Source: a virus. From it: 20,040 bases of DNA. Below the pieces are notes generated by a model that saw only the letters and a list, made by a program, of their open reading frames with translations, was not told the DNA's origin and ran no database searches. The first letter of the stretch is position 1, and each line of letters starts with the position of its first letter. The position numbers and the translations under genes are program-made. Of this stretch, positions 11,135-19,488 are shown piece after piece. The stretch lies in IMG/VR virus record IMGVR_UViG_3300025073_000188, positions 1-20,040 of that record. One strand, written 5' to 3'.

Positions 11135-11770
11135 TTATGCCGCTTTCTTAAAAGGCCATTGAGAGCCTTTTTTTAGATTGCATTTCCCGCAGATCGGGCG
11201 CAGGTTGGCAGGCCAGTTTGAGCCACCCTTAGCTAAAGGCTTTACGTGGTCAATCTCTTCTGCTGGATCGCCACAAATCCAGCAGCGATTACCCCACATT
11301 GCCATACGGTTCCTGATTTGTTGTGCGCTTGCTCGGCCTTGAGCTTGAGAAAGTCGAGAGCGGTGCAGGGCCTTCGATGCTTTACGTAAAGCACGTGCTT
11401 TTTCTGGGTGTCGCAATTTCCACCGCCGATTAAGTTCTGCGTGCCTCCTAGCATTCGCCTTTTTCCACATAGTTGCTGCCCGATAGCGTTTTGCCTTGTT
11501 CTTCCGTGATGATCGAAGATTAGATAGCGCGGTTCTTTTCGGATTTTCTTTCTGCCAGTGGATGCTTCGTTGATTATGGCAGGGAATACAAAAGTAGTAA
11601 CCGACATAGAATTCTGAAATTGGCTTTGATTGGCCGCATTTTTTGCAGGTTTTTATCGGTAGCGGTTTGCCAGAAGCTAGTAGTTCTGCCAACTTCTTGC
11701 GTTTCTGGTCTTTCCAATTACGCATGTAAGCAGCATGTTGAATTCTTCCCTTCGCAGTTTTTAGACCCAT
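11135..11770 (-). CDS. HNH endonuclease between terminase and portal
   Basis: This is a 211-residue protein. It has an N-terminal zinc knuckle (C42/C45 with C61/C64: TCKKCGQSKPISEFYVGYYF then CIPC), a long basic helical linker (residues 65-140, RRHAELNRRWKLRHPEKARA), and a C-terminal HNH domain: C163/C166 (RCWICG), D174-H175 (EEIDHVKPLAKGGSN), N189 (ANLRPICGKCN) and C194/C197. All HNH metal and catalytic positions appear intact, so it should be an active nuclease. It is probably a free-standing homing endonuclease placed at the terminase-portal boundary. Its ATG lies inside the last codons of the terminase gene (10-base overlap), there is no clear SD, and it may be translated by coupling to the terminase. 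Confidence 0.88.
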   Translation of the reverse strand: MGLKTAKGRIQHAAYMRNWKDQKRKKLAELLASGKPLPIKTCKKCGQSKPISEFYVGYYFCIPCHNQRSIHWQKENPKRTALSNLRSSRKNKAKRYRAATMWKKANARRHAELNRRWKLRHPEKARALRKASKALHRSRLSQAQGRASAQQIRNRMAMWGNRCWICGDPAEEIDHVKPLAKGGSNWPANLRPICGKCNLKKGSQWPFKKAA

Positions 11771-14388
11771 AACGACAATAACCCCATGATGGATACGAGG
11801 AGCGCGTATACCGCCTCCCAGCCTCCAACCACCTTCTGCCCGCCAGTGGACTTCTTTCGCCCGATGTTTTCTTCATTCTCCATGTAGGTAATTACCAGCT
11901 CGGGCTCCAAAAGCCGGGACATGCAATCGAGGTCGTCTTCATGCGCGATCGAGCCGACGCCCTTGAAGAGCTTGCATTCTTCGTCGATGAACCGCTTAGT
12001 GAGATCCACGGTGCGGCCATCGTAGATTTTTCGCATACAGGTCCGAGGCAGGTAAATCCGCCCCTCTGAGAAAAATGGAACAATCGCGTCAATCCGCAAA
12101 TCTTTCGACAAATTATGCCGGGGTCCGCTCCGGCCAACCGGCACAGGATAGACTCTGATATCGAAGCCCTCCTCCTGCATTTTCTCAGTCAGGTAATAGG
12201 TATCACTCAATAGGCCGTACTCTTCGTAGATCGTCTGTTGCTGTTTCCACTGTCGAGTTAGGCGCATGATCGCTTCCACCCGCTCTTTGGGGTTCAGTCG
12301 GTCGTGAATCCAATCAACCAAGAAAAGTTTCTTGTCCTGGCCGGCCGCCCATACGTGGATTGAAGTATAGTCGGACTTCTTCCCCTTCGCCCCTGCCGGG
12401 TCCACGATCATGTAAGTGTTGTAGCGACCCGGCGGGATGGGAATGTCATAAAACTTCAACCACTCTTCCTTGAATTTATACGCCTGAGAGGCTGAAGGGT
12501 CCTGCTGAAACTTCGCCCACCAAACTTTACCTTCTTTCTTTTTGAAATCTTCATAGTGTTTTCTCCCGTGATACTCTTCCCAAAGATACTTTCCGGGGTT
12601 CTGCGGGTCTTCAGCCGGTAGGGTTATTACGAACCAATCTCCTCCCTGATCGACTGTGCCATCGTGCTCAAGTATCCGGGCGTATATATCCCGTTGCGTC
12701 CAGCGATGAGCGCACATGACAATCACCGCTTTAGGTTTTAGACGATCCTTCAGTAATCCGGTATAGGTGTCAAATAAGGTGTTCTGGATAGTCTCGCTTT
12801 CGGCGTCTACCCAATCTTTGATCAGATCGTCCATTATCAGGCAATTATGCACGAGTACTTGGTTTGCAAAGAAGTTATTTGTCCCTTCCACTTGGATGTC
12901 ATAGACAGGGACTTTTGCCGTGCGTAATCTGCGAACCGCGGCCACGGAGTCTCCTTGGATTTGTGATGAACCGCATGGCATGTCTTGCAAATCGTCACAA
13001 GGTTCTCTGGCTGATTGTTCGTCGGATTCTCGTCTATGTGATGGATAATCAGAGTCGTTCGGACTATCAGTTGTCCGCGCCATTGAACCAAAATCACTCC
13101 CTCTGAGGCTTGACAAACGATACAGCGATTTTCGTCCCGTTCCAGGATCAACGGGCGCATTAACTCGTACAGTTTGGCGTAGCTCGTTCCGGTCTTGAAA
13201 TGAGAATTCCCAGCCCCTCTCATTCTTAAAGAATGAGCCTTGTCCGCACAGGAGCGAGAGCAAAAGATCGTCCGCGACCCTCTTGGGGCGAACTCCTGTT
13301 CGCATTGAGGGCATGTCCGCTTTGGTCTCAACGCAGCCTGCGCCGCTCGTTGGCAGACCCGCGAACAGTATTTCCAGCCCGACCGTGCGCGTCCATGACA
13401 ATAACTGCATTGATGATGATATTTTGCCGAGTAGTGCGCTATGGAGTGAGCATGTGTGCAGTAAAAGAATCTGGCACCACGCCGAAGCTGCTTCTCGTAT
13501 TCTGCCCGGAGTTTTTTGAACCGCGTCCCACAGAAGGCGCAAACCAGTTCGACTACTATCCCCTCTCGGCGTGTCGCTTGATAACATTCCCGGCAGTTTC
13601 GCCCCCGATGTATCGGTCGCCCACATGTTGCGCAGTTTTTGTTGTGGCGTGACAAACGTCGCGGAAAGGGTATCTCCTGGTCGTAAACTAATCGCCGGCC
13701 TGTAACCGGATTCACGGCAGTAGATCCTATGATCTGCCGTGCATACGATTCGTCTATTGCTGGTTGTTCTAATTTCAACGAGATCATGCGATAAAACCCT
13801 CCTAGTTGCTCGAATGGCTCGCCACTCGACGATGCCGCGCTCATGATTGAAGCCGAGCACCTTCGGCTTGTTATCCGCGTTGTACAGCGCAGCAATATCT
13901 ATTTGCCCCTGATCGGTCGTGACCATCGTCCCCGCGGGAAAGCAATCCAGCCGCTTGCCTCCGATGCCACCGCTGTAACCGACTGAGTAAAAGTTTCCTC
14001 CCATTTTCGTCGTAAAGTGCGTTTTGCTACGGCTGTCTTGGGTCAATCTGGAATTGGGGAAAATTTTAAGGTGCAGGTCGCTCTGCATCCTGGCTTTGAT
14101 TTTTGCGCCGAAGTCATCGCTGGCGAGGTCGGCCGAGTAGGAGCAGACCATCGCATTATGGTCTGGATGCCTGCCTAAGTACCACGGCACAAATGTTCGA
14201 GTGGCAATATCCGATTTTGAGTCACCAGGTGGCATAAAAATCGCCAGCCTCAAAATTTCCCGACGCTCAAGATCCTCAAGGGCTGGGATGATGGTGTTCT
14301 GCTGATAGTCAAACCACTGGTAGCCAGAATTTATGGCAAGATAATATTGGCCGAGCGAGTTTCTGAGTTCTTCGACGTTAAGAGCCAT
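11761..14388 (-). CDS. terL: Terminase large subunit interrupted by an intein
   Basis: This 875-codon frame encodes a packaging motor of 508 residues after removal of a 367-residue intein (residues 149-515). ATPase part: a Walker-A-like loop (MPPGDSKSD, K58), MVCSYSADLASDDF, and Walker B split by the intein (GGKRLD148 then C516-LIMDDLIKDW). It continues with the coupling/arginine region (VMCAHRWTQRDI). Nuclease part: YMIVDPAGAKGKKSDYTSI (D663) and IAHEDDLDCMSRLL (D818/D819). The intact protein cuts concatemers and translocates DNA through the portal; splicing should be needed to join the two halves of the ATPase centre. The ATG overlaps the preceding stop (TGATG). The last 20 residues are unusually hydrophobic (YALLVSIMGLLSLWV) and overlap the next HNH gene. 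Confidence 0.9.
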   Translation of the reverse strand: MALNVEELRNSLGQYYLAINSGYQWFDYQQNTIIPALEDLERREILRLAIFMPPGDSKSDIATRTFVPWYLGRHPDHNAMVCSYSADLASDDFGAKIKARMQSDLHLKIFPNSRLTQDSRSKTHFTTKMGGNFYSVGYSGGIGGKRLDCFPAGTMVTTDQGQIDIAALYNADNKPKVLGFNHERGIVEWRAIRATRRVLSHDLVEIRTTSNRRIVCTADHRIYCRESGYRPAISLRPGDTLSATFVTPQQKLRNMWATDTSGAKLPGMLSSDTPRGDSSRTGLRLLWDAVQKTPGRIREAASAWCQILLLHTCSLHSALLGKISSSMQLLSWTRTVGLEILFAGLPTSGAGCVETKADMPSMRTGVRPKRVADDLLLSLLCGQGSFFKNERGWEFSFQDRNELRQTVRVNAPVDPGTGRKSLYRLSSLRGSDFGSMARTTDSPNDSDYPSHRRESDEQSAREPCDDLQDMPCGSSQIQGDSVAAVRRLRTAKVPVYDIQVEGTNNFFANQVLVHNCLIMDDLIKDWVDAESETIQNTLFDTYTGLLKDRLKPKAVIVMCAHRWTQRDIYARILEHDGTVDQGGDWFVITLPAEDPQNPGKYLWEEYHGRKHYEDFKKKEGKVWWAKFQQDPSASQAYKFKEEWLKFYDIPIPPGRYNTYMIVDPAGAKGKKSDYTSIHVWAAGQDKKLFLVDWIHDRLNPKERVEAIMRLTRQWKQQQTIYEEYGLLSDTYYLTEKMQEEGFDIRVYPVPVGRSGPRHNLSKDLRIDAIVPFFSEGRIYLPRTCMRKIYDGRTVDLTKRFIDEECKLFKGVGSIAHEDDLDCMSRLLEPELVITYMENEENIGRKKSTGGQKVVGGWEAVYALLVSIMGLLSLWV
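12837..13787 (-). CDS. HNH endonuclease nested in the intein in the +1 frame
   Basis: This is a 316-residue protein on the same strand as terL, one base out of frame. It has four Cys-rich zinc-knuckle-like units (C52/C55-C65/C68; C83/C86-C110; C127/C130-C141/C145; C159/C162-C176/C180). The HNH domain follows: C222/C225 (RCIVCQ), H249-H250 (LIIHHIDENPTNNQPENL), N262, C267/C270 (ICKTCHAVHH) and H274/H275. It should be the intein's homing nuclease. The start at 13787 has AGGAGGG 9 bases upstream; the frame opens further up (ATG 13895) but without SD or sequence sense. About 50 N-terminal residues overlap splicing domain A/B coding. The tail overlaps blocks F-G and ends 7 bases past the intein. 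Separate translation, not fusion, is implied. Confidence 0.85.
   Translation of the reverse strand: MISLKLEQPAIDESYARQIIGSTAVNPVTGRRLVYDQEIPFPRRLSRHNKNCATCGRPIHRGRNCRECYQATRREGIVVELVCAFCGTRFKKLRAEYEKQLRRGARFFYCTHAHSIAHYSAKYHHQCSYCHGRARSGWKYCSRVCQRAAQAALRPKRTCPQCEQEFAPRGSRTIFCSRSCADKAHSLRMRGAGNSHFKTGTSYAKLYELMRPLILERDENRCIVCQASEGVILVQWRGQLIVRTTLIIHHIDENPTNNQPENLVTICKTCHAVHHKSKETPWPRFADYARQKSLSMTSKWKGQITSLQTKYSCIIA
12844..13944 (-). mobile_element. Intein in TerL, without in-frame endonuclease
   Basis: The intein spans terminase residues 149-515 (C149 to N515, next residue C516). Block A is CFPAGTMVTT. Block B is IVCTADH (T217, H220). After a domain end near RPGDTLSATF, the next recognisable parts are block F, VPVYDIQVEG followed by NNFFAN, and block G, VLVHN|C with penultimate His514 and terminal Asn515. 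These are class 1 splicing residues, so it should splice. The usual His of block F (as in NHNF) is Asn here. Residues about 250-485 show no LAGLIDADG or HNH motif in this frame and look like composition without a fold, yet contain no stop codon. The same DNA encodes an HNH endonuclease in the +1 frame. Confidence 0.9.
13797..13803 (-). promoter_or_regulatory. Internal Shine-Dalgarno for the nested HNH gene
   Basis: AGGAGGG (13803-13797 on the minus strand) lies 9 bases before the ATG at 13787, inside the intein coding sequence. It is the key evidence that the out-of-frame HNH protein is initiated on its own and not made by frameshifting. Confidence 0.75.
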
Positions 14389-17843: not shown

Positions 17844-18302
17844 ATGCTGTCTATCAAATCTCATTGTAAACGTGGACATGATATTAGCCTGGTCGGACGC
17901 AATCATCACGGAGATTGCCGACCATGTTCAAGATTGCGCAAAGTCAAATATTATCATCTAAATAAAGAAAAAATTAAGGCCTGCAGGAAAACGTACCGAG
18001 AGGCAAATCCTGAAAAAGTTAGAGGAGTGCGTTTAAAGCGGGAGTATGGAATTACAATTAGACAATACCAAAGCCGTCTAGCCAAACAAAATAATAAGTG
18101 CGCAGCTTGTGGTTGTTCAGGGCAAAAACTGGTAGTTGACCACGACCATATAACAAAACAAATTAGAGATTTGTTATGCGATGGTTGTAATAGAGGTATT
18201 GGGCAACTTAGAGACGATCCTATTGTAATCCGCAGAGCAGCACGTTATGTAGAATCTCACCGGCAGCAATCATTAACCCTTAGAGTTCATCATGTCGGAT
18301 GA
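17844..18302 (+). CDS. Recombination endonuclease VII family protein
   Basis: This is a 152-residue protein from the ATG at 17844 (AGAGG 5 bases upstream; an in-frame GTG at 17838 lies inside the SD and is less likely). It has an N-terminal zinc knuckle (C8, H12, C25, C28: HCKRGHDISLVGRNHHGDCR), a basic helical linker, and the endonuclease VII core: C86/C89 (CAACGC), D99-H-D-H102 (VVDHDHITKQIRDLLC) and C112/C115 with N116 (CDGCNRGIGQL). The DHDH and CxxCN motifs match T4 gp49-type nucleases. Those resolve branched DNA before packaging or, in many small phages, act as homing-type nucleases. It overlaps the next gene by 11 bases. It is the first gene of the rightward module. Confidence 0.88.
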   Translation: MLSIKSHCKRGHDISLVGRNHHGDCRPCSRLRKVKYYHLNKEKIKACRKTYREANPEKVRGVRLKREYGITIRQYQSRLAKQNNKCAACGCSGQKLVVDHDHITKQIRDLLCDGCNRGIGQLRDDPIVIRRAARYVESHRQQSLTLRVHHVG

Positions 18303-19488
18303 TCTTCCAACAATAAAGGCTCATCCCGATTTTGATTCGTTTAGCTCCGACGAGCTAAAAATCCATATTCGATCCTTAGAGGAGCAGGTCAATTTCGGCC
18401 AGGTTCATGGCGCCGAGCACCTGGTTATTGTCTCCCTTATCCAGGAGCGGCGATCAGCCCAGGCGGAGCTCGCCCGGAGGAACGGACTTGGACCCCCGAA
18501 CCAACAGCCGGAGTTCTGGCCGGAGTTTTTAAACGCAAAGGACTTTTTAAGCAAGCCCGAAGACCCTCAAAGATGGATATGGGAGGATTGCCTGGCGGCT
18601 GGGGTGGCTTCCATCCTGGTAGCAAAGCCGAAGGTAGGTAAATCTTTTCTCGCCACTAATCTGGCCATCGCCATAGCCCGCGGCTATCCTTTTTTGGCCC
18701 GGGGGGTAACTCAAGGTCCAGTCGCCTACCTCTCCTTAGACGCCACGCACGACGAGATGAGGGACGTTTTTAAGATATTCGGCCTTAAAGACAGCGACCC
18801 GATTTTTATCCATACGGGGCGGGCGCCGGTCAAGGCGCAAAAGTGGGTCATGGAACAGGTAGGTAAAAACGGAGTTAAGCTATTGATCGTCGATACGCTG
18901 CAAAAAGTCTTCAGGTTTCAAAATATTAACGACTACTCGGAAATTAACAACGCGACAGAGCCTCTATTGAGCGCAGCTAAAGAACAAGGCTGCCATGTGA
19001 TGTTTTTGCATCACGCGGGAAAGGAGAGCAGGGACGATCTCGACTCTGCGATTGGAAGCACTGGGCTTCGGGGTCTCGCCTATACCTATCTTCATCTCAA
19101 ACGCTTATCGGAAAGCACCCAACGCATTTTGAGAACCGATCAAAGAGGGGGCCGTAATTTCGACGAAATCGCTATCTCGGACGGAAAGGACGGGTGGATC
19201 GAGAAGATCGGCACGCGAATGGATGCAGAGATTGAAATTTTTAAGCCCCAGATAATAGAATTTTTAGAAGAGCAACCTGGCGCCCAGGAGAAGGAGATCC
19301 ACATGGCAATCCCAGGGCAAGGTCGAATCATGTCACGAGCCTTAAGAGCGTTGATGAAGCTTAGGGAGGTCGAAAGAACGGGAACCGGCAAACGGGGTAA
19401 CGCCTTCCACTACTATCTAGCTGGCCAGTTGATTCAGGAACCGGAAAAGGAAGAGGAAAAAGAACGGAGCTTGTTCCAAGCAAAATGA
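18292..19488 (+). CDS. RepA/DnaB-like RecA-fold ATPase, putative replicative helicase
   Basis: This is a 398-residue protein. After an N-terminal helical part with RIWEDC-like entry (residues 93-104), it has Walker A AKPKVGKS (111-118, K117), a strand-helix with YLSLDATHDEM, Walker B LLIVDTL (D201), and a sensor-like HVMFLHHAGKE (H240/H241). GSTGLRGLAYTYLHLKR then resembles motif 4 of AAA_25/RepA ATPases. Residues 316-376 form a winged-helix-like domain. RepA-type hexameric helicases unwind DNA at origins; here it would start phage replication, though a general DnaB-like or recombination ATPase is possible. It is coupled to endonuclease VII upstream and to the methyltransferase remnant downstream (ATGA). 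Confidence 0.8.
   Translation: MSDDLPTIKAHPDFDSFSSDELKIHIRSLEEQVNFGQVHGAEHLVIVSLIQERRSAQAELARRNGLGPPNQQPEFWPEFLNAKDFLSKPEDPQRWIWEDCLAAGVASILVAKPKVGKSFLATNLAIAIARGYPFLARGVTQGPVAYLSLDATHDEMRDVFKIFGLKDSDPIFIHTGRAPVKAQKWVMEQVGKNGVKLLIVDTLQKVFRFQNINDYSEINNATEPLLSAAKEQGCHVMFLHHAGKESRDDLDSAIGSTGLRGLAYTYLHLKRLSESTQRILRTDQRGGRNFDEIAISDGKDGWIEKIGTRMDAEIEIFKPQIIEFLEEQPGAQEKEIHMAIPGQGRIMSRALRALMKLREVERTGTGKRGNAFHYYLAGQLIQEPEKEEEKERSLFQAK

Follow-up and report, generated by a model that had tools for sequence, protein, structure and literature searches.

A phage terminase intein with a probable homing endonuclease gene in an overlapping reading frame

The viral DNA analysed here (IMG/VR record IMGVR_UViG_3300025073_000188, positions 1 to 20,040, hereafter "the window") carries on its minus strand a terminase gene, terL, interrupted by an intein, and on the same intein DNA, in the +1 frame, a gene for an HNH protein. 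This arrangement very probably constitutes a mobile TerL intein whose splicing and nuclease functions are written on one DNA segment in two frames, the HNH protein being a separate homing nuclease. By computation, both frames are open and conserved, selection is split between them, each has its own fold prediction, their offset is fixed among relatives, and the HNH gene can be lost while the splicing frame is kept. The layout was proposed by a sequence-only reading of the window; both open reading frames (ORFs), curated intein models and a match of the HNH protein to phrog_1271 agree with it.

The TerL ORF (11761..14388, minus strand, as all features below unless stated otherwise) encodes the intein-bearing precursor and is open over 875 codons. 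Its exteins match phrog_38 (4.9e-68), phrog_4758 (3.4e-43) and Terminase_6C. The N-extein (13945..14388) is the ATPase part ending just before Walker B and holds the phrog_4758 match (residues 30-149); the C-extein (11764..12843) runs from Walker B onward, includes the nuclease domain and holds the phrog_38 match (residues 516-828). Between them lies the intein of 367 codons (12844..13944), from C149 to N515. It is composed of an N-terminal splicing half (residues 1-100, blocks A and B, 13645..13944), a C-terminal splicing half (residues 329-367, blocks F and G, 12844..12960) and a connecting linker (residues 101-328, 12961..13644), which is stop-free, fast-diverging and predicted to be disordered, and whose DNA also encodes the HNH protein. 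The splicing motifs comprise C149, the block B motif TADH (217-220), VYDIQVEG and the junction VHN/C, followed by the Walker B sequence LIMDD. The splicing residues are of the class-1 type (Cys1, TxxH, His-Asn, Cys+1), and C1, T69 and H72 (in 30-33 relatives) as well as N367 are invariant. Pfam Intein_splicing matches TerL with E=1.9e-12, and TIGR01445 (intein_Nterm) and TIGR01443 (intein_Cterm) both score over their cut-offs; these curated models agree with the splicing motifs described earlier. With a residue-1 nucleophile, TxxH, His-Asn then Cys and a predicted Hint fold, the element would belong to the class-1 inteins, and splicing activity is predicted.

The HNH gene (12837..13787, +1 frame; 316 residues plus stop) is located fully inside the TerL ORF and overlaps both splicing halves. 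Its coding part spans 12840-13787, with the ATG at 13787 and a TGA stop at 12837-12839. This stop lies in C-extein DNA (TerL codons 517-518), beyond the intein end; the dual coding claimed at the outset stands, and its extent is corrected accordingly. A Shine-Dalgarno (SD) sequence, AGGAGGG (13797..13803), precedes the ATG by 9 nucleotides (nt), and an SD-like site with an ATG at the same intein codon is found in L017, one of the related loci described below. The protein, which matches phrog_1271 at 1.7e-25, displays four Cys-rich, zinc-finger-like units (13233..13634; Cys columns 83, 86, 110, 159, 162, 176 and 180 invariant) and an intact HHIDENP...NNQPENL...ICKTCH core. The catalytic region (12945..13157) reads RPLILER ... 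HHIDENP..NN..NL..C..CH..HH, and the His and Asn residues of its HNH motif are preserved, H249, H250, N258, N262, C267, H271 and H275 being invariant in 30 sequences. The length, the Cys-rich units and the ribosome-binding site are all as first read from the sequence.

The absence of TerL-frame stops opposite the HNH gene is not a matter of chance. Synonymous-codon shuffles of the window HNH gene contain a mean of 10.9 TerL-frame stops, against 0 observed, and the third frame of the window has 14 stops within the HNH core. None of 40,001 shuffles is stop-free, the minimum being 2 stops, which gives P<2.5e-5 from the window locus alone; the sequence-only reading was right about the rarity of such openness, and its figure of about one in a million was somewhat optimistic. 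With relatives added, the case against chance openness is overwhelming. Across the HNH core of 36 non-redundant clusters, 0 TerL-frame stops are found where 388.6 are expected, and HNH codons ending in T are never used before AA, AG or GA (0/825), compared with 1734/3186 in safe contexts (p ~4e-238).

The overlap recurs in other phages. In a tBLASTn search of annotated phages, the window HNH protein finds Gordonia phage Clown (38.8%) and Synechococcus phage S-EIVl (29%). Each carries the HNH gene inside the terminase gene, in the +1 frame and unannotated in its record; the Clown intein is 385 residues long. A profile built from four sequences (window, L003, Clown and S-EIVl) retrieves 80 HNH loci, here family 1, from IMG/VR. 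In 66 of the 80 (64 classified by script and two copies of the window phage), the HNH gene occupies the +1 frame of a spanning open TerL frame, the third frame being closed in all 64 scripted loci; the remaining 14 are distant HNH genes without such a spanning frame. Wherever the junction is readable, the insertion is at the TerL Walker B, with N/C followed by a hydrophobic-DD motif. Genome contigs yielded nothing when searched with the single window HNH protein and 3 hits in an alignment-based search; two cellular contigs, from a Methanosaeta metagenome-assembled genome and Actinobacteria bacterium OV450, display the same layout. The former (L176, Methanosaeta sp. PtaU1.Bin060) places a dual-coding intein in an archaeal bin, for which an archaeal virus or a binning error are both possible.

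Selection on the two frames was measured on 31 aligned loci of a cyanophage-like clade with a 337-codon intein. In the exteins, variation falls mostly on TerL codon position 3 (0.53, versus 0.10 and 0.06). In the HNH core, it follows instead the HNH codons, with 0.52, 0.31 and 0.24 at HNH positions 3, 1 and 2, and 0.34, 0.14 and 0.11 in closer pairs; TerL codon position 1 corresponds to HNH position 3. Constraint is seen in both frames over intein codons ~46-90, and in the C-terminal splicing block the pattern reverts to that of the TerL frame. In the core, purifying selection thus bears on the HNH frame, whereas the exteins and splicing blocks are constrained in the TerL frame. At the amino-acid level, the linker diverges about twice as much as the HNH product (0.38 versus 0.17, and 0.63 versus 0.35). 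Periodicity and divergence together indicate that the TerL-frame linker is kept open and is otherwise loosely constrained, while the HNH protein is conserved.

Structure predictions follow the same partition. The AlphaFold model of the TerL-frame intein has a predicted local distance difference test (pLDDT) score mostly of 93-98 for residues 1-90 and 331-367 (85-98 over the whole N-terminal half, 93-97 in the C-terminal half from residue 331), and of ~36-51 over most of residues 101-320. Foldseek assigns the Hint fold, and the best PDB matches of the model are inteins (E ~1e-5), those found by Foldseek or profiles including NrdJ-1, DnaX and RecA. In the disordered TerL-frame middle, the Pfam scan and AlphaFold provide no match to an in-frame endonuclease domain. 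In the model of the HNH frame, pLDDT averages 82 and reaches at least 90 in 160 residues. This model has no significant whole-chain match in the PDB (best E 0.028), and its zinc-finger arrangement is therefore matched to no solved nuclease. The two intein ends are thus predicted with confidence as a Hint fold with disorder between them, and the other frame, also with confidence, as an HNH protein.

Decaying copies point to the frame that matters most. In L071 and L072, a deletion has removed most of the HNH gene and left an intein of 211 codons with an open TerL frame, and in L058 the HNH frame is broken and the TerL frame still open. The splicing frame is therefore the one that cannot be lost. 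L071 and L072, natural mini-intein derivatives, also carry, upstream of the Walker-B intein, what looks like the final part of a P-loop intein. The distribution fits a mobile element: 80 TerL relatives at 80-97% identity are without the intein. In these alleles, the +1 position is Val or Ile in 78/80, compared with Cys in the intein-bearing ones, and the two exceptions with Cys, L252 and L253, are also those nearest to alleles that carry the intein. L058 and L252 share 100% identity over 400 nt downstream of the site and 72.5% upstream, a step as expected if recombination ended near the intein. L252 and L253, whose TerL is cyanophage-like, possess in addition an in-frame LAGLIDADG-type P-loop intein, complete in L253 and on a partial contig in L252; their Walker-B site is empty yet already has Cys at +1.

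A second HNH family shows the same principle in a different frame. The TerL of L003 contains two inteins and carries both families: the second intein is inserted in the TerL nuclease domain and harbors a different HNH gene, of the HNH_3 type, in the +2 frame. Its product has the HNH followed by zinc fingers, in contrast to the zinc-finger-then-HNH order of family 1. This layout is also present in Acinetobacter phage Highwayman, Tetrasphaera phage TJE1, Rhodobacteraceae phage LS06-2018-MD07 and a human faecal phage contig. An IMG/VR scan retrieves at least 554 family-2 relatives; the best 80 of these were classified: 69 have the HNH gene in the +2 frame of an open frame that spans it, the other 11 are free-standing genes, and no HNH gene is in frame. 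The hosts are terminases by profile in 7/7 tested. Host-frame stops number 0 against 125.9 expected in 55 clusters, where the third frame has 1,085. A start codon 37-44 residues before a conserved LHR is common, a conserved ATG is seen, and 25/59 members have an SD match of at least 5, versus 9% at control positions.

Some free-standing family-2 relatives are located directly downstream of terL (L092, 2923-3540; L093, 2998-3615; L095, 2935-3507), which suggests a path of origin in which a nuclease gene adjoining its target moves into the intein linker, in whichever frame stays open. L095 is Brevundimonas phage Poludnitsa, in which the free-standing HNH has no annotated gene. Four families of unknown function (phrog_35162, phrog_36001, phrog_21587 and phrog_28563) match the TerL-frame intein region of family-2 hosts and may be host-frame translations of DNA hiding HNH genes. 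Dozens of unrelated phages share the conserved dual coding, and the offset between the frames does not vary within a family (+1 throughout family 1, +2 throughout family 2). Quite probably, dual-coding inteins are widespread in phage terminases and have arisen at least twice (family 1, +1 frame, at Walker B; family 2, +2 frame, at the nuclease-domain site), their linkers being held open mainly by selection against stops.

In the proposed mechanism, reading of the TerL frame would produce a two-half Hint domain (residues 1-100 and 329-367) joined by an unstructured translated linker of ~228 residues, and protein splicing would remove all 367 residues and join the TerL exteins at Walker B. Reading of the +1 frame of the same mRNA, from an internal start with its own SD, would yield the complete zinc-finger/HNH endonuclease as a separate protein. 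The expectation is that this nuclease would cleave, at Walker B, TerL alleles devoid of the intein, and repair would copy the intein in. With two separate proteins, terminase yield would be uncoupled from nuclease level.

Several points weigh against this mechanism. Splicing, translation of the HNH gene from an internal start and its homing role are steps that we infer, and a target at Walker B is only an expectation. Selection was measured on a sister clade and not on the window, because only near-identical copies of the window phage were found (1 difference in 8,948 nt). The exact HNH start is the weakest point and is not settled family-wide. An ATG at intein codon 53 is shared by the window, L003, L012, L017 and L036; other family-1 members have TTG, GTG or a later start, many with a weak SD, and a single conserved start was looked for across family 1 and not found. 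L013, L023 and L027 have HNH-frame stops around intein codons 47-67, so that the start must be later there. Of the start signal emphasised by the sequence-only reading, SD and ATG are thus only partly kept in family 1; the HNH frame itself is under selection.

These poorly conserved starts, and an HNH frame already open ahead of its ATG in the window and several relatives, would suit +1 ribosomal frameshifting inside the intein, which would generate an N-intein-HNH fusion and not a separate protein. The stops in L013, L023 and L027 leave no common shift site before them, however, and the strong SD and ATG at the same codon in the window and L017, together with the conserved ATG and SD enrichment of family 2, argue for initiation, making frameshifting unlikely.

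Since the endonucleases of most characterised inteins share the reading frame of the splicing domain, the HNH frame could also be the unexpressed relic of a once in-frame domain, or such a domain put out of frame by an error. The sequence-only reading had named in-frame homologues as the observation that would speak for such an error; none was found among 66 family-1, 2 cellular-genome and 69 family-2 loci. The same +1 offset in 66/80 loci and two isolated phages, the purifying selection on the HNH frame and the catalytic residues invariant in 30 sequences make a relic very unlikely. As a general explanation, an indel, a sequencing error or a relic is rejected, the offset being fixed in many independent loci. 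Expression could be lost in single members such as L058.

Still less probable is an insertion of the kind described for the ShiLan domain and the Pacc40 insertion, in which an out-of-frame HNH gene sits in a host gene and the insert is retained in the protein, with no splicing (Arsenault, Gosselin, Gogarten 2025, Genes 16:178, PMC11855218). The logic is the same, that of an out-of-frame HNH gene inside a phage gene whose own frame is open, with a sporadic distribution (PMC11855218), and the HNH protein of the ShiLan-bearing phage Mantra, in a methylase, is distantly related to family 1 (35%, E=6e-7 with that of Clown). ShiLan insertions, however, are without an intein or intron splicing domain, reside in a methylase, and no SD was found for them (PMC11855218). 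The window element shares with them the out-of-frame HNH gene in an open host frame; in contrast, it has a full intein that surrounds and overlaps the HNH gene, it is in TerL, and it is spread over many phage groups. Complete splicing blocks, matches to curated intein models and Hint halves with pLDDT >90 are at odds with a retained insert, as is the splitting of the Walker B of an essential ATPase. A group I intron with an HNH ORF, removed at the RNA level, is the least probable of all and is rejected: such introns are common in phages, but the Rfam scan of the window has no match at the gathering threshold, every cluster keeps the TerL frame without stops across the insert, an openness that an intron would not require, and the motifs fit protein splicing.

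Among known systems, in-frame HNH inteins also combine a splicing domain and an HNH in one element, and Dalgaard et al. reportedly presented an intein with an HNH endonuclease in 1997, judging by the title. In these, the nuclease forms one domain of the intein polypeptide. The window HNH is in the other frame and would need a frameshift to end up in one chain with the splicing domain, and the window intein is thus not a bifunctional one with an in-frame endonuclease. Mini- and split inteins with free-standing homing endonucleases have splicing and nuclease on separate proteins, as proposed here, but the gene for their nuclease flanks the intein parts or lies between them, without overlap in another frame. 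Mycobacteriophage TerL inteins are found in ATPase motifs, including TerL1-e at Walker B (Kelley et al. 2016, PMC5050341). Five representatives splice, and two with identifiable endonuclease domains cut intein-less alleles (PMC5050341); in contrast to the window, no out-of-frame HNH is mentioned in the passages of that paper that were consulted.

That no such case had been described, as the sequence-only reading supposed, needs qualifying: out-of-frame HNH insertions without a splicing domain were published in 2025 with ShiLan (PMC11855218). On inteins with an out-of-frame nuclease, the literature searched offered nothing beyond the ShiLan paper and a genome announcement that repeats it. The ShiLan authors cite a 2025 preprint on the non-canonical architecture of actinobacteriophage inteins (PMC11855218); as far as its title and the citing context go, they suggest overlapping frames in actinobacteriophage inteins, and related cases, Clown included, may be covered there.

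Elsewhere in the window, a DnaB/primase-helicase-like ATPase gene is located at 18292-19488 on the plus strand, opposite to the structural module.

Dual-coding inteins indicate that overlapping genes can accommodate both functions of a mobile intein, an arrangement that would separate nuclease expression from that of an essential host protein. They also provide natural Hint domains in which a long linker free of constraint is apparently tolerated, and work on splicing or on the evolution of overlapping genes could draw on them. Gordonia phage Clown, which has been isolated, makes the system accessible to experiment without rare material. The HNH gene is unannotated in 5/5 isolated or complete phage records (Clown, S-EIVl, Highwayman, TJE1 and LS06-2018-MD07), and inteins recorded as devoid of an endonuclease may carry hidden ones.

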